From positions 1 to 21,006 of the IMG/VR virus record IMGVR_UViG_3300005733_000032: a DNA stretch of 21,006 nt; one strand, given 5' to 3'. This document shows, piece by piece, positions 55-16,842 of this stretch. The DNA is from a virus. Below the pieces are notes generated by a model that was given only the letters and a program-made list of their open reading frames with translations, had not been told where the DNA came from and did no database searches. The position numbers were made by a program, and so were the translations under genes. Numbering within the stretch: the stretch's first letter is position 1; each line of letters starts with the position of its first letter.

Positions 55-468
55 ATGAAGAATATCTTTGATTGGTTAAAATGTATTAATACTACTAAAC
101 CTCCTGTCGAGTCATTTTCTGATAAAGATTGGGAGGTTTGGAATAGTTATATGATCCACAGATTCATCTCAATGAATCCAGATTATTTAGAGATAGTAAA
201 TTATGTACAAGATTTTCCACCACAAGAAAAGAGAATGATATATTCTATTTACAAAGAATTTATCCCTAAAAATAATAAATGGAATAAGTACATTAAATCT
301 AAGGTAAAACAACCAAACAAAGATTTAGTAGACCACATCAAAGATTATTTTGAATGTTCAAGTAAAGAAGCAAAAGAATATATAAATATATTGGCTACCC
401 CAGAAATAAATCGTATATTAGCGAATAGAGGATTAGATAAAAAGGAAATAAAACCATTATTAAAATGA
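55..468 (+). CDS. 62: T4 gp62-like clamp loader small subunit
   Basis: A 137-residue protein resembling the short gp62 proteins of marine T4-like phages. These pair with gp44 to load the sliding clamp (gp45) onto primer-template DNA. Visible marks are an N-terminal FDWLKCINTTK segment, a central SYMIHRFISM stretch, a WNKYIKSK motif near residues 77-84 and a C-terminal DYFECSSKEAKEYI helix. This order matches cyanophage gp62 as I remember it; no alignment was run. The protein is shorter than T4 gp62 (about 187 residues), as is usual for marine relatives. It starts directly after the upstream stop and overlaps the next start by 4 bases, so it sits in a tight replication operon. It is the main evidence for a T4-like phage. 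Confidence 0.7.
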   Translation: MKNIFDWLKCINTTKPPVESFSDKDWEVWNSYMIHRFISMNPDYLEIVNYVQDFPPQEKRMIYSIYKEFIPKNNKWNKYIKSKVKQPNKDLVDHIKDYFECSSKEAKEYINILATPEINRILANRGLDKKEIKPLLK

Positions 469-6103: not shown

Positions 6104-6540
6104 GGCTAGGAGATCTAACAGAAAAATTAATATCTATAATTACCTTAGGACAAGGTAAAAAAATTGCTACTTACATAGCTAAACTAAGAGGGAAAGAAGA
6201 TTGTGGGTGTAATAAAAGAAAAACAATACTAAATAACCTAAATACTAAATCCATGTCAGTACCTGAAACATCCTTTGCCTTAGATTGGGATAAAAAATGG
6301 CAAGAAATAAGAAGCCAAGTATCATGTGCTTGTAAATTTGATTATGCTATTTTATTAGTTAAAGATAAAATGGGAGGAGTTCTTTATGAAGAAAAATTAT
6401 CTGCTGCCCCCTATATGAATGGTCAAGCAAGAAATAAAACGGTATCACTTCCTACTTTTTTTACCCCTCATTCTTATAGTTTAAAATTCCATAAAAAGGA
6501 AGAAAACGAGTTTATAAACCCCATAGAGATAGAATTATAG
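6100..6540 (+). CDS. Phage protein with CGC-type cysteine motif, function unknown
   Basis: A 146-residue protein in two parts. The N-terminal 50 residues contain DLTEKLISIITLGQGKKIA and a cysteine knot, EDCGCNKRK (C35, C37), of a kind that recurs in small phage proteins. The C-terminal part has SCACKFDYAILLVKDK and ends in hydrophobic/charged repeats, possibly beta-rich. The four cysteines could bind a metal. No catalytic motif is visible. It overlaps the previous gene by ATGA and the next by TAGTG. Like its zinc-ribbon neighbour it is an orphan embedded among the sugar genes. Confidence 0.65.
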   Translation: MRLGDLTEKLISIITLGQGKKIATYIAKLRGKEDCGCNKRKTILNNLNTKSMSVPETSFALDWDKKWQEIRSQVSCACKFDYAILLVKDKMGGVLYEEKLSAAPYMNGQARNKTVSLPTFFTPHSYSLKFHKKEENEFINPIEIEL

Positions 6541-7163
6541 TGAAAATAAGTTATGCAATAACAGTTTGTAACGAAAAAAAAGAAGTTAAACAGTTAGTTG
6601 ATTTTCTTTTACATTACAAACGTCAACAAGATGAAATAGTTGTTCTTTATGATCAAAAGAATGGTGATGAAGAAGTGATTAATATGCTTACTAAATTAAA
6701 CAAACTTCCTAACTTCCAAGTATGGAGAGGATTCTTTGAAGGACATTTTGCTGATTGGAAGAATAAATTAACAGAATATTGCTCCGGTGATTATATTTTT
6801 CAGATAGATGCAGATGAAATTCCTAATCAAGCCTTACTAGAAAATTTACCCCTTATATTAGAACAAAACCCAGATAACGAAGTTTATTTAGTCCCTAGAA
6901 TTAATACAGTAGAAGGACTAACCCAAGAACATATCAACAAATGGAGGTGGAATATTGATGATGAAGGAAGAGTCAACTGGCCTGATTATCAATGGAGAAT
7001 CTGGAAAAATAAACCAGAAATCAAATGGGTTAATAAGGTACATGAAAGATTAGAAGGTTTTGAATCATATACTCTACTACCAGCCTTACATGACTTAGCT
7101 CTACAGCACCCCAAAACAATAGAGAGACAAGAAAAACAAAACTCATATTATGACACATTATAA
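6540..7163 (+). CDS. GT2-family glycosyltransferase (first)
   Basis: A 207-residue GT-A glycosyltransferase. It begins KISYAITVCNEKKE, the typical first strand and loop of GT2 enzymes, and carries the metal/nucleotide motif D90-A-D92-E93 in IFQIDADEIPN. A later WRIWKNKPEIKWVNKVHE stretch with a conserved HE is common in this group (WaaE/KdtX-like). The length is short but covers a full GT-A core. The start is GTG at 6540, sharing its G with the TAG stop upstream; no in-frame ATG lies near. The 3' end overlaps the dehydrogenase start by 14 bases. Sugar specificity is unknown. Confidence 0.87.
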   Translation: MKISYAITVCNEKKEVKQLVDFLLHYKRQQDEIVVLYDQKNGDEEVINMLTKLNKLPNFQVWRGFFEGHFADWKNKLTEYCSGDYIFQIDADEIPNQALLENLPLILEQNPDNEVYLVPRINTVEGLTQEHINKWRWNIDDEGRVNWPDYQWRIWKNKPEIKWVNKVHERLEGFESYTLLPALHDLALQHPKTIERQEKQNSYYDTL

Positions 7164-7974
7164 AGTAGGAATTATAGGGAATGGTTTTGTAGGGGAATCA
7201 CAATCGTTTGCTTTTTCTCCAACAAATGAGATTAGAATCTATGATGTAGACCCTTTAAAAAGTACCCATACTCTTAATGAAATTAATGAATGTGATTTTA
7301 TATTTGTGTGTGTGCCCACTCCTATGGGTAAAGATGGTTCACAAGATATATCATTTATAGATGAAGTATTTGAAAAAGCTATAGAATACCCTATCTATAT
7401 TATTAAATCTACAATACTACCTGGTACTACAAAAAAACTTTCTAAGAAATACCCCCACCTTAATATAGTCTTTAGTCCCGAATTTTTAACTGAAAGAACT
7501 GCTAAGCTAGATATGCTAACCCAAGCAAGGATTATTTTTGGGGGTAAAAAAGAAGATACAAAAAAGGTAAGAAAGTTATATGAAAATAGGTTTATGAATC
7601 GTCATATAATTGAAACCGATTCAACTACAGCTGAATTAATTAAATATATGAATAATACTTTTTTTGCAACCAAAGTTAGTATTATAAACGAATTTAAGCT
7701 ACTATCAGACAAATTAGGAACCAATTGGAAAGATGCATTGTATGGATTTGCTTCAGACCAACGTGTAAGTGATAGTCATTTACATGTACCTGGTCCGGAT
7801 GGTAAATTAGGGTACGGTGGTACTTGCTTCCCTAAAGATGTTAATGCCCTAATTATATTAGCTAAAGAACTAAACACACCTCTTAATACAATAGAAGGGG
7901 GGTGGAAGACAAATTTAATAGTAAGGCCTGAAAAAGAATGGGAATTAGATAAGGGTAGAGCAGTAAGCGAATAA
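7150..7974 (+). CDS. ugd: Short UDP-glucose 6-dehydrogenase-like enzyme
   Basis: A 274-residue UDP-glucose/GDP-mannose dehydrogenase. The NAD site is G10-N-G12-FV-G15. The CVPTP motif follows, then FSPEFLTERTA, a helical central domain (ELIKYMNNTFFATK) and the catalytic cysteine C226 in YGGTCFPKD, which is the Ugd form rather than the WecC form. Full-length family members have about 390-450 residues. Here the C-terminal UDP-binding domain is missing, and about 45 residues between the NAD motif and PTP are trimmed. Expected reaction: two-step oxidation of UDP-glucose to UDP-glucuronate, or of a related sugar. Whether this compact form is active is open. No frameshift is visible: the frame simply ends at 7974. 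Confidence 0.82.
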   Translation: MTHYKVGIIGNGFVGESQSFAFSPTNEIRIYDVDPLKSTHTLNEINECDFIFVCVPTPMGKDGSQDISFIDEVFEKAIEYPIYIIKSTILPGTTKKLSKKYPHLNIVFSPEFLTERTAKLDMLTQARIIFGGKKEDTKKVRKLYENRFMNRHIIETDSTTAELIKYMNNTFFATKVSIINEFKLLSDKLGTNWKDALYGFASDQRVSDSHLHVPGPDGKLGYGGTCFPKDVNALIILAKELNTPLNTIEGGWKTNLIVRPEKEWELDKGRAVSE

Positions 7975-7988
7975 AAAATAGAAAAAAT

Positions 7989-8921
7989 ATGATTAAAGGA
8001 GAAAAAATCTTCATTACAGGGGGTGCAGGATATTTAGGAAAAAATTTAGTTGAAAGGTTATATAAGGATAATGAAATAACTATTTTTTCTAGAGATGAGG
8101 CTAAACATTATTTTCTTAAAAAGAAGTTTCCAAATATTAAGTGTATTATTGGAGATGTCCGTAATTACCCCCTTTTAAAAAAGTCTTCAATTGGTCATTC
8201 TATAGGTATATTTGCTGCTTCTATTAAACATATTCAAACTGTAGATCAAAATGTTCAAGAAGGATTAGAAATTATTATTAATGGAGCGATTAATTCAAGA
8301 AAAGCAGCAGAGGAAAATAATATGAAAGCTGCTTGTTTTATATCTACTGATAAATCTAGAGCAGCTACTACTTTATATGGTTCAATGAAATTTGTAGCAG
8401 GAGAATCATTTATTGTTAATTCTGAAGATTCTTCCGTAAATTTATCAACAGCGATTTATGGAAATGTTCTTAATTCAACCGGAAGCATTATTCCCCTTAT
8501 TTGGGATTCAATAAATAACAACTATCCTCTTACACTGTATTCAGATAAAATGAGTAGATTTATGATTACAATTGATGAAGCTATAAAACTAATAGAACAT
8601 AGTCTTGAAGTTAATGGGTATAATATTATTCCAAATATTAAATCATTTTTAGTAAAAGATTTATTTGAAATATATTTTGAAAAATTCGGATTAAAATATA
8701 ATTTAGGAGTCCCTCGGGTTTCAGAAAAACTCCATGAAATGATGATTTCACCTGAAGAAGTTCCAAGAACTTATTTTGATAAAAATAAAAATATATACCT
8801 TATGCATTATTCAAAACTAGCAGATAACCCTATTAAAAACGAATATGTGAGTGATAATTCATTAATAACTAAAAAAGAACTTGAAATAATATTAAAACAA
8901 TATAACTATTTTACACCATGA
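7989..8921 (+). CDS. CapE/PseB-type UDP-GlcNAc 4,6-dehydratase
   Basis: A 310-residue extended SDR enzyme of the Polysacc_synt_2 family (CapE, WbjB, PseB, FlaA1). The NAD motif is G11-GA-G14-YL-G17. FAASIKHIQTVDQN matches the family helix before the active site. STDK (D121, K122) and Y130-GSM-K134 form the catalytic set, and RFMITIDEA and EKLHEMMIS are family signatures. The PxN usual between STDK and YG is replaced by SRAATTL, so it is divergent. Expected reaction: UDP-GlcNAc to a UDP-4-keto-6-deoxy-HexNAc, with C5 inversion in CapE- and PseB-type members. The CapF-type gene starts at its stop codon (ATGA), which favours the CapE role. Confidence 0.87.
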   Translation: MIKGEKIFITGGAGYLGKNLVERLYKDNEITIFSRDEAKHYFLKKKFPNIKCIIGDVRNYPLLKKSSIGHSIGIFAASIKHIQTVDQNVQEGLEIIINGAINSRKAAEENNMKAACFISTDKSRAATTLYGSMKFVAGESFIVNSEDSSVNLSTAIYGNVLNSTGSIIPLIWDSINNNYPLTLYSDKMSRFMITIDEAIKLIEHSLEVNGYNIIPNIKSFLVKDLFEIYFEKFGLKYNLGVPRVSEKLHEMMISPEEVPRTYFDKNKNIYLMHYSKLADNPIKNEYVSDNSLITKKELEIILKQYNYFTP

Positions 8922-9964
8922 CCATAGCAATTACAGGAGAAAAGGGTTTTTTAGGGTATCATTTAACCCAATATTACAAATGGATAAAAAAATATCAAAT
9001 AATAAGTTTAGGTAAAAATTATTTAGATAATATAGGTTTATTGAGTAAATGTGATTTACTTATTCATTGTGCTGGGGTTAATAGAGGAGATTCAGTGTAT
9101 GAAGGTAACATTAAATTAGCTTCGGATTTAGTTGAGGCATTAAAAAACAATAATATTAAAATAAATATTAAATTTACTTCATCAACCCAAGTTAATAAAA
9201 ATAATGAATATGGGAATTCTAAATTAGAGGCAGAAAAAATACTATTTGATTATTGTACCAAAAGTAATACCCAATTAAATACATTTTATATTCCTAATTT
9301 ATTTGGTCCTTTTGGGAAACCTAATTATAATTCTTTTATTTCTACTTTTTGTTATAACCTAAACAATAATATAGAATGCAAACATAATACTAATTTAGTA
9401 GAATTATGCCATGTATATGATGCAATAAAAGCTATTGATTTGGATATTCCTTTTATTACTAATGATATAACTGTTGAAGATGTTTATTTAAAACTACAAT
9501 CTTTTCAAGAAGACTATTCCCAAGGGATCATCCCCAACCTAACCTCTAAATTTGATCTTGATTTATTTAATACTTTTAGAAGTTATAGTAATAATCTTTT
9601 TAAATTTAAAAGACATTCAGATGATAGAGGACATTTAGTTGAACTTGTAAAAGGCAAAGGTAGTCAAACTCAAGTATTTTTTTCTACAACCAAACCAAAT
9701 ATAACAAGAGGTGACCATTTTCATTTTGGTAAAGTAGAAAGATTTTGTGTATTATATGGAAAAGCTTTAATTAAAACCAGAAAAATAGATTCAGAAGAAA
9801 TAAATGAATATATTATTTCTGGGGATGATAATAAAGTAATTGATATGCCTGTTTTATTTACCCATAATATTACTAATGTTGGAAATGAAGATTTAATCTG
9901 TGTATTTTGGGTCAATGAAGTATTTAATGTAGATAACCCTGATACCTATTATATAAAAGTATAA
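8918..9964 (+). CDS. capF: CapF-type bifunctional reductase/epimerase (SDR + cupin)
   Basis: A 348-residue two-domain protein matching CapF/WbjC/FnlB. The N-terminal SDR has G7-EK-G10-FL-G13, LIHCAGVNR (48-56), Y98-GNS-K102 and NLFGPFGKPNYNSFISTFCY (127-146), a very characteristic CapF stretch. The C-terminal cupin (about 228-348) carries the probable metal ligands H267, H269, E274 and H316 in GDHFHFGKVERF and FTHNI. In Staphylococcus aureus the cupin domain epimerises C3 of the CapE product and the SDR domain reduces C4 with NADPH, giving UDP-2-acetamido-2,6-dideoxy-L-talose. It is coupled to the CapE-type gene by ATGA. All expected active-site elements are visible, so this is the firmest assignment in the cassette. 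Confidence 0.93.
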   Translation: MTIAITGEKGFLGYHLTQYYKWIKKYQIISLGKNYLDNIGLLSKCDLLIHCAGVNRGDSVYEGNIKLASDLVEALKNNNIKINIKFTSSTQVNKNNEYGNSKLEAEKILFDYCTKSNTQLNTFYIPNLFGPFGKPNYNSFISTFCYNLNNNIECKHNTNLVELCHVYDAIKAIDLDIPFITNDITVEDVYLKLQSFQEDYSQGIIPNLTSKFDLDLFNTFRSYSNNLFKFKRHSDDRGHLVELVKGKGSQTQVFFSTTKPNITRGDHFHFGKVERFCVLYGKALIKTRKIDSEEINEYIISGDDNKVIDMPVLFTHNITNVGNEDLICVFWVNEVFNVDNPDTYYIKV

Positions 9965-9966
9965 TT

Positions 9967-10695
9967 ATGATTACTAATTCTTTTAGAGGGGATATAGAAT
10001 TTATCCATACTAAATTAAAAAATAAAGAAAAGTTTGCGTTTAGTAAATATGCTGATGGTGAATTTCGTATCTTAGCCAACCAACATATTAATCTATTAGC
10101 CAAAGCCAATGGAGAATTTAAATACGATCCTAATGATATCAGTGATTCACTTTATAGACAAGAATTAGTCCATTCATTCCAATACCAACATCAAAATTAT
10201 TATGTAGGGATAGGATGTAAGTGTTGTATGGGTGATACTTCTTTTAACTGGATGAAAGACAACAGTGGTCAACCCCCCCTGAATTTAACTTGGGCTAATA
10301 TATTTGTAAACGGAAATTATAAATATTATCAAAAAAATATAATTCCCCTTTATAGTAATTATGAAGTAGTAATGGTGGTAAATCATAAAGCAAAACTAGA
10401 TAGTTTACCATTTAATGTTATTAAAGACTTTAGAGTAGGTACAAATGCCTATAAAGAAGATTATAATTTGTTTAAAGAAATAAATTATTGGGTGAATGAA
10501 AATAACATAAAAAATAAGTTATTTTTATTTTGTGCTGGACCTTATGGTAATATTTTGACTTGGAAGCTCCATCAAAATTCCCAAAATAATACTTATATAG
10601 ATGTGGGTTCAACTTTAGACCCATATTTAGAGTTAGGTAAAACACGTGGTTATCTTAAAGGAGCTGATACATTAAGTAAAATGTGTATTTGGTAA
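9967..10695 (+). CDS. GT-D-type glycosyltransferase (DUF1792-like)
   Basis: A 242-residue protein resembling the GT-D fold family (DUF1792, first described in a streptococcal serine-rich-protein glycosyltransferase). FAFSKYADGEF contains the DxE motif (D30, E32) that family members use for metal and UDP binding. A second nucleotide-type loop, LFLFCAGPYGNILTWKL (185-201), precedes a strand ending IDVGS (D212). Three clustered cysteines (C84, C86, C87) are unusual. GT-D enzymes extend O-glycans on proteins, so this weakly favours protein glycosylation. It starts 2 bases after the CapF-type stop. The assignment is from motifs only. Confidence 0.65.
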   Translation: MITNSFRGDIEFIHTKLKNKEKFAFSKYADGEFRILANQHINLLAKANGEFKYDPNDISDSLYRQELVHSFQYQHQNYYVGIGCKCCMGDTSFNWMKDNSGQPPLNLTWANIFVNGNYKYYQKNIIPLYSNYEVVMVVNHKAKLDSLPFNVIKDFRVGTNAYKEDYNLFKEINYWVNENNIKNKLFLFCAGPYGNILTWKLHQNSQNNTYIDVGSTLDPYLELGKTRGYLKGADTLSKMCIW

Positions 10696-10704
10696 AATTA
10701 AAAA

Positions 10705-11346
10705 ATGAAAGAAATGAATATTACTGGAATTGTAGGTACTTGTGATTCTTATTTGGATCTAGTTCCTAATTATATAAAATTATTTACTAAATATAGCAGT
10801 TTAAATCCATTTCTTATTATAGGAGAAACCCAAACCCTGGAGTCCATAGAAGTTTTTACACCTGGTAAAAAACCCTGGGGAGAAAGGTTATTAAATGGAT
10901 TAGAACATATCAATACTAAATATATATTATTTACTTTAGAGGATTATTATCTTCAAACTCCCATAGACTCCTATATTAAACATAGTATAGATATTATGGA
11001 AAATAATGATCTAGATAAAATTAGTTTTATATCTAATAGCCATTTTAGAAATTATAAATTAAATCCTACTAATATTGATAATTTTTATTTAATGGATTCT
11101 GATTGTAGCTGGTTAGCTACTTTACAAATGGGGATATGGAAAACCCAAATATTTAAAGATACTTTAAAACCTTCTTATAGTCCATGGGATTTTGAGTTTA
11201 AAGGTAGAAATTATTTGATGGATAAAAAATGTGGAGTTTTAGATCCCAATTGTGAATTAGTATTTAATTTTGCCAGAAGGGGCAAAACCCTATCTCAAGG
11301 ATGGGAAGAATTTCTTAATAGTGAAAATTTAACATATAAACCATGA
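10705..11346 (+). CDS. GT-A-like glycosyltransferase, divergent
   Basis: A 213-residue protein with the layout of a small GT-A transferase. It begins NITGIVGTCDSYLDL, a first strand and loop. PWGERLLNGLEHI then leads into KYILFTLEDYYL, where E79-D80 stands where a DxD-type motif would be. Capsule-type relatives I recall read FLLDDFFL here. A tryptophan-rich WLATLQMGIWKTQIF segment (135-149) and PWDFEFKGRNYL could form the acceptor side. It overlaps the next gene by ATGA and lies 9 bases after the GT-D gene. Activity and sugar are unknown; the changed acidic motif makes it less certain than the other transferases. Confidence 0.55.
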   Translation: MKEMNITGIVGTCDSYLDLVPNYIKLFTKYSSLNPFLIIGETQTLESIEVFTPGKKPWGERLLNGLEHINTKYILFTLEDYYLQTPIDSYIKHSIDIMENNDLDKISFISNSHFRNYKLNPTNIDNFYLMDSDCSWLATLQMGIWKTQIFKDTLKPSYSPWDFEFKGRNYLMDKKCGVLDPNCELVFNFARRGKTLSQGWEEFLNSENLTYKP

Positions 11347-12326
11347 TACTATTTTGTTTTGGAACCCGGCCTGAATGGTTAAAAATAAAACCCATAATTA
11401 AACTTCTAGATAAATCCCAATATAAACTTTTATTCACGGGACAACATACGGATTTACTTAAGGATATAAAAGTAGATTACAAAATTACTATTCCCCCACA
11501 TGAAAATAGACTAGATGCTATAATTAGTGCCTGTATATTACAATTTCCTGAAGGGGAATTTGGTAGTGTATTAGTACAAGGTGATACTGCTTCTGCCTTT
11601 GCTTGTGGTTTAGCAGCTTTTAATAGACAATTAAAAATTTATTATTTAGAAGCCGGATTACGTAGTTATGATATGCAGCACCCCTACCCAGAAGAGGCAT
11701 ATAGGCAAATGATTGCTCGTATTGCAGATATTAACTTTTGCCCTACAGAATTATCAGCTAAAAATTTAAAGAATGAATTAGTACATGGTAAAATTCATGT
11801 TGTAGGGAATAGTGTATTAGATAATTTATTATCCTATAAAGATAAATGTGAATATACTAATAAAGTATTAGTTACTTTACATAGAAGAGAAAACCACCAT
11901 TGGATGGGTAAGTGGTTTACTCAAATAAACCAATTAGCAATTAATAACCCAGATTTAGAATTTATTTTACCTTTACACCCTAACCCAAAAGTTCAAAAAC
12001 ATAAACATCTATTAACTAATATTAAGGTTGTTAAACCCTTAACCCATTCTGAATTATTGGGTATTTTAGTAAAATCTAAATTTGTGATTAGTGATAGTGG
12101 TGGATTACAAGAAGAAGGGACATTTTTTAATAAAAAGGTAATTGTGTGTAGAAAAACAACAGAACGACCAGAAGCAATCCCTACAGGACATTTATATTTA
12201 TGTAAATCCCCTGAAGATTTATATAGCTTATTTGGAGAAATAAATCAAAATTACTATATTAATAACAAATGTCCTTATGGAGAGGGAGATACTAGTAAAA
12301 AAATAAAAAATATTATATGCATATAA
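11343..12326 (+). CDS. UDP-HexNAc 2-epimerase (WecB/CapG superfamily)
   Basis: A 327-residue GT-B-like non-hydrolysing 2-epimerase. Motifs are GTRPEWLKIKPI, VQGDTAS (D81), LEAGLRS (E103), HPYPEEAYR (E117), TLHRREN (H180) and SDSGGLQEE followed by TTERPEA. The equivalents of the E. coli WecB catalytic residues D95, E117, E131 and H213 are all present. It is about 50 residues shorter than WecB (376). The AGLRS and YPEE forms match WecB (UDP-GlcNAc to UDP-ManNAc), while CapG/WbjD, as I recall, has AGNR and VPEE. Its neighbours are CapE- and CapF-type genes, so the CapG reaction (making UDP-L-FucNAc) fits the context. Sequence and context thus point to different substrates. Confidence 0.88.
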   Translation: MILFCFGTRPEWLKIKPIIKLLDKSQYKLLFTGQHTDLLKDIKVDYKITIPPHENRLDAIISACILQFPEGEFGSVLVQGDTASAFACGLAAFNRQLKIYYLEAGLRSYDMQHPYPEEAYRQMIARIADINFCPTELSAKNLKNELVHGKIHVVGNSVLDNLLSYKDKCEYTNKVLVTLHRRENHHWMGKWFTQINQLAINNPDLEFILPLHPNPKVQKHKHLLTNIKVVKPLTHSELLGILVKSKFVISDSGGLQEEGTFFNKKVIVCRKTTERPEAIPTGHLYLCKSPEDLYSLFGEINQNYYINNKCPYGEGDTSKKIKNIICI

Positions 12327-12397
12327 AAAATTATAATTTAGGCAACTATATAGTACCTGATAACACAAAAGGTGGAATAATAATAATATTTAATTGA
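12317..12397 (+). pseudogene. 26-codon ORF, possible remnant of an FkbM-type methyltransferase
   Basis: A short frame that starts inside the end of the epimerase gene and stops with TGA at 12395-12397. It encodes MHIKNYNLGNYIVPDN followed by TKGGIIIIFN. FkbM-family methyltransferases often begin their SAM domain with a similar 'Y-(I/V)-VPDN...GG-(I/V)-DIG' run. Here the frame ends just where the SAM-binding DIGxNxG would follow. It may be the stump of a gene deleted from the cassette. It could equally be a chance ORF in the 87-base gap, since 26 residues is little to judge by. Confidence 0.3.
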
Positions 12398-12413
12398 TAT
12401 ATAATTTATTAAT

Positions 12414-13130
12414 ATGATTACAGTAATACTTAATAGCTATAAAAGAGCTACATACCTAACAGAACAAATTCAGGCAATAGAAAATCAAACGGTTAAACCT
12501 AAGGACATAATGGTTTGGTCTAATAGACCTGAGGAAGGTAAACAGTATAATTTAGATGATTTGGGGGTAAAGGCAGCTTATGCTAATCATAACTTTAAAT
12601 TTCATGCCCGATTTGCTTTTGGTCTTTTAGCTAAAACTGAATATGTAGCTTTTTTTGATGATGATACCATCCCAGGTCCTAAATGGTTTGAAAATTGTAT
12701 GAATTATTTAAAAAATGACAATTTAATTTTAGGGAGCACAGGAGTATTATTTAAAAGAGATGAGTATGATGGAGCCACAAAAATAGGATGGAATGGTATT
12801 CATAATTCTAAATTAGAGTATGTAGATTTAGTGGGACATGCTTGGTTTATGAGAAGAAACACATTAAAATACCTTTGGGAAAATTATCCTTTATCTTGGG
12901 ATAATGGAGAAGACATCCAACTATCAGGATGGGCTTATCAATATGGAGGGATAAAAACTGCAGTTCCCCCTCACCCTAAGGATGATGTAAGTCTTTGGGG
13001 TAGTACAAAAGGGTGGGAGTATGGGAATGATAAGAATTCTTCTTGGAGAAAAAACAACCATTTTCCCCTTAGAAACCAAATAGTAAGGGATATTATAGAC
13101 CAAGGTTATATTAGAGTTGAAAAAAGATAA
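12414..13130 (+). CDS. GT2-family glycosyltransferase (second)
   Basis: A 238-residue GT-A inverting-type transferase. It begins ITVILNSYKRATYL, with Q-I-x-A-I-x-N-Q-T following, a classic GT2 N terminus. The DxD motif is AFFDDDTIPG (D82-D84), and the catalytic-base region is DNGEDIQLSG (E166, D167). A WFMRRNTLKYLW segment fits the acceptor-binding strand. It starts 87 bases after the epimerase, the widest gap in the cassette, with an AT-rich leader and no clear promoter. The next gene's ATG follows its stop directly. Donor and acceptor are unknown. Confidence 0.9.
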   Translation: MITVILNSYKRATYLTEQIQAIENQTVKPKDIMVWSNRPEEGKQYNLDDLGVKAAYANHNFKFHARFAFGLLAKTEYVAFFDDDTIPGPKWFENCMNYLKNDNLILGSTGVLFKRDEYDGATKIGWNGIHNSKLEYVDLVGHAWFMRRNTLKYLWENYPLSWDNGEDIQLSGWAYQYGGIKTAVPPHPKDDVSLWGSTKGWEYGNDKNSSWRKNNHFPLRNQIVRDIIDQGYIRVEKR

Positions 13131-13880
13131 ATGAAATTAGTAGTATACACTGCATTATTTGCTGATCCTGAGTTACCATTAGAAGAGGTAGGTAGATTTT
13201 TTCCATTTAAACATGAAAAAAATGATGTAAAATATATAGCATTTACAAACAGAAAGGATTTAAAATCAGATTATTGGGAAGTGCGCCATTTAGATAAATG
13301 GGATAATTATTCTTATAGAATGATGTCTCGATTTTTAAAATGGAATCCTGATAAAGCATCACTTCCCGAACATACACATTCTTTATGGATGGATTCACAA
13401 TGTTATTTTAAATTTGAACCTACTGCCATAATAAATCACTATTTACAAAGTAAATACCACACGGCTATACACCATCATACTGATTTACAAAGTGCTTATG
13501 TAGAAGGAATGGTTACATCTTATGTTTATTTTAACGATAAACCTTCTATAGTTAATAGACAGTTAGAAGGATATTTTGAAGAAGGAATGCCCTATCAATA
13601 TGATCATTTTGAAACTGGTATATTAATTAGAAAAAATTGTAAAGAATCTATAAAATTATCCAATAGGATATTCACAGAATTAGAAAACAAAAGTATTAGA
13701 GACCAAATATGTACCCCTTATGTTGTCTGGAAATCCAGACAAGAGGGAGATAAGGGTATATTAACTATAAAAGAATCATTCACCGCTCATAAGGGACAAT
13801 TACCACTACCCAAATCCCAGATATTTTTTACTGAACCAAAACCTAGTGAAAAGCTTAAAGAAAACTTGGATAATCGCTAA
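13131..13880 (+). CDS. TOD1/MUCI70 (DUF616)-like glycosyltransferase
   Basis: A 249-residue protein with the pattern of the DUF616 family, named after the plant proteins TOD1 and MUCI70 and treated as glycosyltransferase-like. Marks are VVYTALFADPE at the N terminus, YIAFTNRKDLKS, YSYRMMSRFLKWNP and HSLWMDSQCYFK, where D88 is the likely metal-binding acid. HFETGILIRKN (159-169) resembles the family's later motif. Bacterial members usually lie in surface-polysaccharide loci. It is the last cassette gene, and the next promoter's -33 element lies inside its last codons. Its substrate is unknown. Confidence 0.75.
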   Translation: MKLVVYTALFADPELPLEEVGRFFPFKHEKNDVKYIAFTNRKDLKSDYWEVRHLDKWDNYSYRMMSRFLKWNPDKASLPEHTHSLWMDSQCYFKFEPTAIINHYLQSKYHTAIHHHTDLQSAYVEGMVTSYVYFNDKPSIVNRQLEGYFEEGMPYQYDHFETGILIRKNCKESIKLSNRIFTELENKSIRDQICTPYVVWKSRQEGDKGILTIKESFTAHKGQLPLPKSQIFFTEPKPSEKLKENLDNR

Positions 13881-13924: not shown

Positions 13925-14284
13925 ATGCTACAGACTATTAAAAAACCAATTCAAGTGAAAATGATTCCATGTTCTAAGTGTGGTAACGATATGCCGGAAC
14001 TTAGAAAAATAAAATTTGGCTATGATTTCTGTGTCCATTGTTCAGAAGGATTAAATTTAGTGGGTAAAAAACGTGCTTTACCAGTGCAAATGGGAGAAGG
14101 CGACCACTCTTGGACAGAAACCATTATCATGGAAGAAAACGAGTATCTACAGTATGAAATGATGGAAGCTATTAATTCTAAATCTAAAAAGAAAAATAAA
14201 GCTGAAATACTAAATTTTGAATCTGAAGAAAGAAATCTTCAAGGACCTTTTAAAATCATAAATAACCCTACAGAAGAAGACTAG
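13925..14284 (+). CDS. DksA/TraR-like zinc-finger protein
   Basis: A 119-residue protein whose residues 18-41 form a C4 zinc finger, CSKCGNDMPELR then FCVHC. The spacing C-x2-C-x16-C-x2-C is one short of the DksA/TraR finger. DksA-family proteins reach into RNA polymerase through its secondary channel, but the coiled-coil with acidic tip that normally precedes the finger is absent. A long acidic helical C-terminal region follows instead. It may bind host RNA polymerase or simply be a zinc-ribbon phage protein. It is the first gene after promoter P1. An AAAAGG stretch 11 bases before the ATG could act as a weak Shine-Dalgarno. Confidence 0.6.
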   Translation: MLQTIKKPIQVKMIPCSKCGNDMPELRKIKFGYDFCVHCSEGLNLVGKKRALPVQMGEGDHSWTETIIMEENEYLQYEMMEAINSKSKKKNKAEILNFESEERNLQGPFKIINNPTEED

Positions 14285-14286
14285 TT

Positions 14287-14904
14287 ATGCCCAAACCAAA
14301 ACCATTATCAAAAGAAATGATAGTGGCGGCTCAAGCAAATACTAAATCAAATATGGCCGCTAGCAGGTACTTGCATGTTTCTTATCAACATTATAAGAGA
14401 TATGCTAAGTTATATGGTTTGTTTGAAGACCATAAAAATCAAAGCGGTAAAGGTATACCCAAATTTTTAAAAGGTAAAGGCAAAGAACCCGCTCTTTTGG
14501 ATATAATTGAAGGAAGAGTATCAGCCGCTCATTTTACTCCTGCAAAAATAAAGTATCGTTTAATAGAAGCTGGATATTTATTAGAGCAATGCTCAATGTG
14601 TGGTTTTCAAGAACGACGGGTACTAGATTATAAAATGCCCTTATTGTTGCACTTCAAAGATAATAACAAGTCTAATTATAGTAAAGAAAATATAGAATTA
14701 CTATGTTATAACCACTATTTCCTTACAGTAGGGGATATTTTTACTGAAAAGGATGTAAAACAAATTGAGTCACATCAAGAACATCATGGCACAAGTGAAA
14801 AAATTGAATTTGAAGTAGATGATTACCACTTACAGCGCCTAAGAGAATTAGGATTAGCAGATGATGATGAAGATGATGTTAACCAATATATTTCAAGAAT
14901 ATGA
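14287..14904 (+). CDS. HTH plus HNH-like zinc-knuckle protein
   Basis: A 205-residue protein with three parts. Residues 8-45 resemble a helix-turn-helix (MAASRYLHVSYQHYKRYAKL), followed by a basic GKGIPKFLKGKGKE linker. Residues 102-145 form an HNH-like fold: C102-x2-C105, LLLHFKDNN (H122), KENIELLC (N135, C140) and NHYF (H143). In an active HNH enzyme the first motif is usually a His-His or Asp-His pair; here it is L-H-F, so activity is doubtful. The tail is acidic (ADDDEDD). It may be a DNA-binding regulator or a decayed homing-type nuclease kept for binding. It lies 2 bases after the zinc-finger gene. Confidence 0.6.
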   Translation: MPKPKPLSKEMIVAAQANTKSNMAASRYLHVSYQHYKRYAKLYGLFEDHKNQSGKGIPKFLKGKGKEPALLDIIEGRVSAAHFTPAKIKYRLIEAGYLLEQCSMCGFQERRVLDYKMPLLLHFKDNNKSNYSKENIELLCYNHYFLTVGDIFTEKDVKQIESHQEHHGTSEKIEFEVDDYHLQRLRELGLADDDEDDVNQYISRI

Positions 14905-16404: not shown

Positions 16405-16842
16405 ATGGCACTCTGGGAATTTAGAAATTTAAACAAACACGGTAATTACAGAAAACGAATTATCCATACTAAAGGTGCATTAAGCATACCTGGTAGTGGG
16501 TTTGGTCCATCTGTAATGGTAAATAGGTTCAAGTACAAATATGAACACCCACTTATGCCTCCTATGATTTGGAAAAATAATGGTAAAACATATTTGATGC
16601 CATTATGGCAAGAGGTAGTTGATGGTACTACAGTTGATGATATAGAATGGGTTAAACCTAAACCTAGGGTTAAACAAGAACCTGTTATTGAAACTCATAC
16701 TAGCAGTAGTAGTGCTGATAAAACATATAAAACAGTATATTATCCAGATTCAGGTAAGTTTTACTGTGATTGTCCAGGCAGATGGAGAGCGTTTGATAAT
16801 CGTTGTAAACACATAAAAGAATTAGAAAAAAAAGTAAAGTAA
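16405..16842 (+). CDS. SWIM zinc-finger protein
   Basis: A 145-residue protein ending in a SWIM-type zinc finger: C121-x-C123 and C134-x-H136 in FYCDCPGRWRAFDNRCKH. The SWIM fold binds DNA or proteins and occurs in transposases, helicases and plant regulators. The N-terminal 85 residues contain LWEFRNLNKHGNYRKR, PPMIWKNNGKTYLMPLW and GTTVDDIEWVKPKP, perhaps a small beta domain. A serine-rich linker (HTSSSSADKTYK) joins the parts. Driven by its own promoter P2. Likely a DNA-binding accessory factor; the partner is unknown. Confidence 0.72.
   Translation: MALWEFRNLNKHGNYRKRIIHTKGALSIPGSGFGPSVMVNRFKYKYEHPLMPPMIWKNNGKTYLMPLWQEVVDGTTVDDIEWVKPKPRVKQEPVIETHTSSSSADKTYKTVYYPDSGKFYCDCPGRWRAFDNRCKHIKELEKKVK

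Follow-up and report, generated by a model that had tools for sequence, protein, structure and literature searches.

In S. aureus, P. aeruginosa and E. coli, UDP-L-FucNAc is made by the CapE-F-G, WbjB-C-D and FnlA-B-C enzyme sets; in PMC3699295 and PMC5774825, bacterial CapE is described as carrying out a dehydration and inverting C5, CapF as inverting C3 and reducing C4, and CapG as inverting C2. Here, we analyze a related gene pair, encoding a dehydratase (7989..8921) and a CapF (8918..9964), in IMGVR_UViG_3300005733_000032, a 21,006-base IMG/VR virus record that represents a 21 kb fragment of a phage genome and that we refer to, over its full length, as the window. As in the bacterial sets, the dehydratase is coupled to a full CapF that joins a short-chain dehydrogenase/reductase (SDR) to a cupin. 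The locus differs from these sets in that its dehydratase is of the YxxxK type without the CapE latch, no CapG was seen in the 21 kb record, the 2-epimerase is WecB-like, the pair is phage-borne and its CapF belongs to a separate group.

Viruses are already known to make an L-sugar of a related kind. Megavirus chilensis produces UDP-L-RhaNAc with Mg534 and Mg535 (PMC4691112, PMC9614988), which is the closest precedent for the window and, by analogy, may be a model for those related phages that carry an RmlD-like reductase. The Mg534-Mg535-Mg536 set (UDP-L-RhaNAc, UDP-L-QuiNAc) is likewise virus-encoded, and Mg534 (4tqg), the best PDB match of the window dehydratase, is of the Y type in the PDB-match alignment and is described as latch-less in the available text of PMC4691112. 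The set differs in belonging to a eukaryotic giant virus, and Mg535, at 270 amino acids (aa; excerpts of PMC10117803), would by its length be too short to hold an SDR plus a cupin. A second parallel is found in the P-SSM2-type lipopolysaccharide clusters of cyanophages, where large T4-like phages also carry clustered sugar genes, among them NAD-dependent epimerase/dehydratases and in some cases sugar isomerases of the cupin fold (PMC7824862); however, CapF is not named in the main text of PMC7824862 (0 occurrences), and the window protein is one SDR-cupin chain. The initial annotation knew of no described phage set of this kind. In the broad sense of any viral set, this was rejected because of the Megavirus precedent, and the pair itself occurs in 20 IMG/VR loci, one of them from the window phage. 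In the narrower sense it held, as full-text searches of the open-licence literature, in the parts of the result lists seen, returned no description of phage CapF modules; the phage dehydratase-CapF variant is new.

The dehydratase-CapF pair and its predicted product

Both genes of the pair are open on the + strand and overlap by an ATGA (8918..8921) that joins the dehydratase stop to the CapF start, confirming the coupled pair with a full SDR-cupin CapF pointed out in the initial annotation. Among the 20 phage pairs, the two genes overlap by 4 bases in 12 and by 7 bases in 4, and do not overlap in the other 4; a 4-base overlap between CapE and CapF is also present in 5 of 8 plasmid operons. 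The CapF protein (348 aa) consists of an N-terminal SDR (PF01370; TGxxGxxG, S89, Y98, K102) and a C-terminal cupin (Polysacc_synt_C, PF14667, residues 233-344, E = 2e-43; H267, H269, E274, H316), with the residues of the SDR YxxxK and the cupin HxH...E...H all present, and it matches S. aureus Cap5F over the full length (E = 2.9e-62).

The dehydratase (310 aa; PF02719, E = 3.4e-41), which contains STDKSRAATTLYGSMK, is a phage-type 4,6-dehydratase homologue of what we call the window-type clade. Its best PDB sequence matches are Mg534 (7.3e-41), FlaA1/PseB (2e-29), WbjB (1.8e-27), Pen (2.6e-26) and CapE (4.5e-25). An AlphaFold2 model (pLDDT 90.4, from 24 sequences) gave VIA-align Z values of 36.5, 36.4, 36.0 and 34.0 for the inverting enzymes WbjB, CapE, PseB/FlaA1 and Mg534 and of 36.1 for Pen, followed by 28.7 for PglF and at most 25.4 for the other listed SDRs. 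The closest fold among the SDRs is therefore that of the PseB/CapE/Mg534 UDP-GlcNAc 4,6-dehydratases, and as modeled the enzyme sits among these, a placement that leaves its stereochemistry unfixed. The catalytic residues D132, K133 and Y141 of FlaA1 (excerpts of PMC5774825) have D121, K122 and Y130 as window counterparts, to which K134 is added. The marks of the CapE subfamily, MxxxK replacing YxxxK and a 23-residue latch (excerpts of PMC3699295), are both missing: the window has Y130-x3-K134, and the latch region is mostly gapped against the CapEs in alignments. Identity with CapE proper was rejected on these two grounds, and the dehydratase represents a divergent phage clade that shares the UDP-GlcNAc 4,6-dehydratase fold. 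With PseB/FlaA1 it shares this fold and the catalytic D/K/Y, but it stays below the equivalog cut-off, has 12 conserved positions replaced and has CapF as its coupled partner. Thus, the earlier statement that all expected active-site residues are visible was borne out in CapF and, within the dehydratase, in the D/K/Y/K core, but not at these 12 family-conserved positions; judged by its sequence, the enzyme has kept its core and changed part of the surroundings.

On this basis, we lean towards reading the pair as a phage nucleotide-sugar cassette, placed in a variable sugar slot of a T4-like phage, that would make an L-talo sugar. The dehydratase would convert UDP-GlcNAc into a 4-keto-6-deoxy-L-arabino sugar by 4,6-dehydration and C5 inversion, after which the CapF cupin would invert C3 and the CapF SDR would reduce C4, giving UDP-2-acetamido-2,6-dideoxy-L-talose, which we take to be UDP-L-PneNAc. 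Because no CapG was seen in the record, the pathway would end at this L-talo sugar, or at something made from it by neighboring enzymes. The WecB-like 2-epimerase encoded downstream would act separately on UDP-GlcNAc, while the flanking glycosyltransferases would use the end product on the virion or the host surface, a glycan use that is favored by the many glycosyltransferases in the slot. Of the two products initially proposed, the L-talose precursor is the likeliest and the best supported, whereas UDP-L-FucNAc is unsupported, the 2-epimerase not being a CapG. If the enzymes work as predicted, phages would make an L-talo amino sugar of their own.

Several observations weigh against this reading. 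Neither protein reaches the equivalog model tested for it: the dehydratase scores 153.2 bits with the PseB model TIGR03589 (cut-off 407.75), and CapF scores 222.2 bits with NF047837 (cut-off 500). In addition, at 12 positions that are kept in at least 90% of 75 other rows of the dehydratase alignment, fewer than 10% of the 46 window-type rows have the family residue (examples, given as family residue, window position and window residue, are N96I, P126A, N128T, R156I and T184Y), and because of the low PseB score and these replacements the substrate may differ from UDP-GlcNAc. The fold match to B. thuringiensis Pen is as high as that to the other enzymes, which is why the stereochemistry is not fixed by it, and one CapE entry with a shorter model scores a Z of 31.5. 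Finally, since the record is a 21 kb fragment, a CapG may be present elsewhere in the phage genome; one viral record (L036) combines a Y-type dehydratase with a CapG; and a host CapG could finish the pathway, CapG being found near CapF in 75 of 80 bacterial loci.

Relatives of CapF and exchange of the second gene

A CapF profile search of phage records, the check proposed with the initial annotation, found CapF in 2 of the 50,697 records of the annotated phage collection INPHARED, both of them unannotated Staphylococcus records that are probably bacterial DNA, and in 2, then 5 and then 26 loci in successive scans of IMG/VR. At 20 of these 26 loci, a Y-type dehydratase lies directly upstream of a CapF of at least 330 aa; they include L003, which is a second record of the window phage (CapF 100% identical), and L030, which is cut by the contig end. 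No CapG-motif protein was found within the locus in any of the 20. In the six remaining viral loci, the contig begins at CapF (L024), CapF is a short SDR-only protein (L031, L032), an M-type dehydratase and a CapG accompany a CapF cut by the contig end (L034), CapF is split over two open reading frames (L035), or an SDR-only CapF, an EAGNR-motif CapG and a Y-type dehydratase stand side by side (L036, 2945-5704). The L036 record has a length of 52,889 bases and also matches a terminase family. In a search of a viral fold library, the best-ranked match had 16% identity, and absence from that list proves nothing.

For bacteria, a genome scan with an alignment of two phage CapFs returned 150 stretches, none of which was a relative, and a second scan returned at least 591 relatives, of which the best 80 by similarity to the window, mostly from Bacteroidota, were kept. 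In their best segments, these 80 do not exceed 42% identity to the window CapF, versus 61% for the best other phage. Within approximately 6 kb of the bacterial CapF, we found an M-type CapE at 76 of the 80 loci, a Y-type dehydratase at none and a CapG with the EAGN motif at 75; the misses have no CapE (L079, L089, L109), a cut CapE (L092), no CapG (L039, L079, L098) or a cut CapG (L037, L044). A tree was built from 109 CapF rows, made up of 21 phage rows, the 80 genome loci and 8 plasmid loci (L003, L031, L032, L034, L035 and L036 were left out), in which the 21 phage CapFs form one side of a branch with an SH-aLRT of 99, obtained with a quick method.

Querying with an alignment of dehydratases, we recovered 258 loci that hold a relative, and the best 80, all at least 62% identical to the window dehydratase, were used as window-type loci. 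Of these 80, 45 have an RmlD-like reductase as the directly adjacent partner, 5 have CapF (one being the window phage) and 3 have a short CapF; 24 have no such partner, and in 3 it is cut. In a second clade, the Mg534-type (51 loci at least 51% identical to the dehydratase of L002), the partner is CapF in 14, RmlD-like in 18, none in 18 and cut in 1. Both clades together comprise 131 IMG/VR loci, with CapF directly behind the dehydratase in 19, a shortened CapF in 3, an RmlD-like gene in 63, no partner in 42 and a cut in 4; a more distant set of 29 loci has an RmlD-like gene in 3 and no partner in 26. The partner can differ between close relatives: L002 has CapF, and L242-L244, with dehydratases 80-81% identical to that of L002, have an RmlD-like gene in its place. 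On a dehydratase tree (115 rows kept of 163, with one short row dropped; 7 references; partners considered within 1.3 kb downstream), the distribution of CapF requires 11 gains or losses, of which at least 7 are forced by well-supported branches; for this tree, the program issued a long-branch warning (the window-type stem measures 2.09). Because CapF is scattered over the dehydratase tree while the phage CapFs form one group, the simplest reading of these sequences is that the second gene was repeatedly exchanged, CapF versus RmlD-like reductase, behind related phage dehydratases. This exchangeable second gene is a more interesting result than the UDP-L-FucNAc reading.

The term RmlD-like is defined here by a profile built from these partners themselves. 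With RmlD_sub_bind, one partner gave 6.8e-5 (below the cut-off), a longer one 6.8e-15 and one no match; an NCBIfam match was absent in 3 of the 4 partners tested, and YGx[ST]K is present in 68 of 82 RmlD-like proteins. A PF04321 (RmlD) search matches 20 of 21 records and also catches dehydratases. Besides the window phage, 6 of the 131 loci hold a CapG-profile protein within the locus, with the EAGN motif in one; in none of these six is the partner CapF, and in 4 it is RmlD-like, an arrangement reminiscent of the Megavirus trio. A Bacteroidota-wide dehydratase search matched 296 of 296 genomes and is too broad, and the 30 loci from it were left out of the analysis.

The phage CapFs themselves fall into two classes. 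In class A (9 rows, window included), the listed SDR and cupin residues are all intact. In class B (12 rows, L020-L030 and L033, with two near-identical pairs), the catalytic lysine is replaced by arginine in 12 of 12 and the tyrosine is lost in 5 of 12, with the cupin residues intact in all 12; the 88 bacterial CapFs have the lysine in 88, the tyrosine in 86 and each cupin residue in 88. Class B CapF is thus probably a disabled reductase on a working 3-epimerase. The opposite arrangement is found in L182 (8930-9574; the record of L032), L200 (8909-9574) and L216 (8930-9619; the record of L031), where CapF consists of the SDR alone (214-229 aa), has kept YxxxK and precedes an RmlD-like gene. 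For seven pairs of relatives, all Mg534-type from the class B side and none from the window clade, dN/dS is 0.05-0.20 for CapF and 0.03-0.09 for the dehydratase, at a high dS of 0.65 to 3.0; these low ratios imply that class B phages maintain the two genes.

We tentatively propose, as a possibility for which we would not claim even odds, that a sugar-switching cassette is carried by T4-like phages whose hosts are probably Bacteroidota. It would combine a dehydratase of either of the two clades with an interchangeable second enzyme, namely CapF, a cupin-less CapF plus an RmlD-like protein, a CapF with disabled reductase, or an RmlD-like protein alone; class B CapF would then be a 3-epimerase that works through its cupin alone, and the substrate of the window-type dehydratase may be a new one. 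Swapping the one coupled gene would change the stereochemistry of one L-sugar among related phages. Provided that the enzymes work as predicted, phages would vary an L-talo amino sugar by exchanging a single translationally coupled gene, and the 12 class B CapFs, which have lost the reductase lysine but kept the cupin, would offer natural variants in which the functions of a two-domain enzyme are separated. If true, this would give a handle on why large phages carry sugar genes, in that gene exchange would diversify the stereochemistry of a glycan on the virion or the host surface.

Possible alternative substrates and the absence of CapG from the record

It is conceivable, though in our judgment unlikely, that the window-type dehydratase has shifted to another nucleotide sugar or outcome, with CapF acting on its product so that another deoxy sugar is made. 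The stem of the window-type clade is long (2.09 changes per column), more than 90% of its 46 rows lack the family residue at the 12 positions while D/K/Y/K were kept, and CapF is one of several partners of these dehydratases. However, the enzyme belongs to the same fold group as the UDP-GlcNAc 4,6-dehydratases, a CapF-family partner is also found in the conventional phage clade, whose member P0006 matches FlaA1 at 8.9e-59, and the CapF of the window belongs to class A and is intact.

We consider it distinctly improbable that the phage makes the L-talo compound and a host CapG finishes UDP-L-FucNAc, by which the phage would boost or redirect a capsule or O-antigen pathway of its host. The bacterial CapFs nearest to that of the window (best 80) come mainly from Bacteroidota and mostly have a CapG nearby (75 of 80), and the nearest cultured phage infects Flavobacterium. 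Yet none of these 80 exceeds 42% identity to the window CapF, the phage CapFs group apart from them, and the dehydratase beside bacterial CapF is of the MxxxK type, with a Y-type in 0 of 80 loci.

There is very little to recommend a complete CapEFG-type set that makes UDP-L-FucNAc with protein 11343-12326 as its third enzyme, as the initial annotation had suggested from a gene content that does resemble the CapEFG trio. A 2-epimerase (11343..12326, + strand, 327 aa; Epimerase_2, E = 6.3e-65) is indeed present 1.38 kb downstream of CapF, but its sequence identifies it as a WecB-like UDP-GlcNAc 2-epimerase and not as CapG. Against solved structures, it matches UDP-GlcNAc 2-epimerases at 1.6e-49, E. 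coli WecB at 5.4e-40 and CapG at 2.7e-16, and in BLAST it is 30.9% identical to E. coli WecB (4e-45) versus 27.5% for the best of eight CapGs (2e-27). The CapG motifs EAGNR...PEExNR and SDSGT are absent, the window having EAGLRSYDMQHPYPEEAYRQ (EAGLR) and SDSGG in their place. Structure-sequence search, BLAST identity and motifs together led us to reject CapG. The protein also passes the WecB/MnaA model TIGR00236 (222.3 versus 210.15 bits), a non-discriminating result that decides nothing alone, because the CapGs of the eight plasmid loci are annotated wecB as well. Some 2-epimerases might be promiscuous; however, PF02350 is found in none of the records that hold the other 19 phage pairs, which are fragments. 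Among 27 whole records, it matches 4, two of them from the window phage (the window itself and L003, WecB-like) and two with the CapG motif (L034, L036), and it was not found in the 348,582-base record of L015. The trio was therefore not borne out, given the WecB-like 2-epimerase and the latch-less YxxxK dehydratase.

The phage and its variable sugar slot

A bacterial chromosome or contamination as the source of the window can practically be dismissed: capsule loci typically hold sugar genes, and the two CapF matches in INPHARED probably come from bacterial DNA, but the flanks, checked for this possibility, carry phage replication genes in synteny with Flavobacterium phage immuto, and related records hold the phage markers given below. 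The window starts with a gp62-family T4-type clamp-loader small subunit (55..468, + strand; phrog_225, E = 1.3e-14) and a phage exonuclease. The L003 record reaches further upstream, where it encodes a DNA polymerase, Hsp20, GroEL and gp44- and gp62-type clamp loaders. One record thus holds the T4-like marker set of gp44 and gp62 with polymerase and exonuclease, which bears out the T4-like setting proposed initially. The GroEL of the window phage (L321, 3188-4810) is 59% identical to that of immuto. Among 27 related records (window phage counted twice), the gp62 family is found in 18, versus 0 of 14 control genomes, Gp23 in 1, a 348 kb relative, and terminase in 4, 3 of them above the cut-off; the 348 kb record has both Gp23 and terminase, and no Gp23 capsid was found in the 21 kb or 33 kb records, which are fragments only. 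Moreover, a tail-sheath protein is the next large open reading frame behind the window-type dehydratase in 12 of 80 loci, the family having been tested for one. In these (L186, 9266-11041, and 11 further loci), the tail-sheath gene lies approximately 330 bases downstream of the dehydratase, which has no directly adjacent reductase. The G+C content of the window is 25-32% in 1 kb steps, and nearly all plausible genes are on the + strand, as are all the slot and border genes described below.

In an exonuclease search, the nearest annotated phage was immuto (Immutovirus; 42.5%). Both phages share the gene order nuclease (43% identity), small protein, two glycosyltransferases (57% and 52%), small protein, GT2 glycosyltransferase (69%), sugar block, DksA-like protein (38%) and HNH endonuclease (48%). 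The window record is a T4-like phage related to immuto and, because map and identities match this Flavobacterium phage, its host is probably among the Bacteroidota. The borders of the sugar slot are the same, with nuclease, two glycosyltransferases and GT2 on the left and DksA-like protein and HNH on the right; its content differs, as immuto has aminotransferases, an epimerase and glycosyltransferases where the window has the block with the dehydratase-CapF pair (7150-13880).

In the window, the slot is bordered on the left by the GT2 glycosyltransferase (6540..7163) and on the right by two proteins (13925..14904) homologous to the immuto DnaK suppressor protein and HNH endonuclease, the latter also recognized by PHROG; neither of the two has a Pfam match. 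Behind the left border lies a short nucleotide-sugar dehydrogenase (7150..7974, 274 aa) with a GGTCFPKD stretch, presumably the motif with the catalytic cysteine, and without a match to the C-terminal UDP-binding domain. L002 has a similar short dehydrogenase (12627-13496, 289 aa), and in both phages the profile matches end before the C-terminal part. CapF is followed by a possible GT-D-fold glycosyltransferase (9967..10695), weakly matched by PF08759 (E = 0.0077, 16.5 bits against a cut-off of 27), and by a 213-aa protein (10705..11346) that has no Pfam match above the cut-off and has homologues in other phage sugar islands (L031/L216, L200, L247, L255). Downstream of the 2-epimerase are another GT2 glycosyltransferase (12414..13130; PF00535, E = 1.3e-8) and a TOD1/MUCI70-like glycosyltransferase (13131..13880; PF04765, E = 8.2e-11).

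In related phages, a PIG-L deacetylase (L204, 13813-14448) and an ATP-grasp protein (L263, 5048-6004) are commoner near CapF than near the RmlD-like gene (8 of 14 versus 4 of 50 loci for PIG-L; 6 of 14 versus 0 of 50 for ATP-grasp), counts that are confounded by relatedness; the window belongs to neither neighbor cluster. The sugar islands of L014, L017, L020, L021, L023 and L025 encode a short aminotransferase-like protein of 195-211 aa, and these six whole records match PF01041 in pieces, in frames of 195-215 aa. PF01041 aminotransferases are found in 9 of 21 records and not in the window. Outside the slot, the protein at 16405-16842 has a C-terminal CxC...CxH stretch that, as far as we can judge, resembles a SWIM zinc finger.

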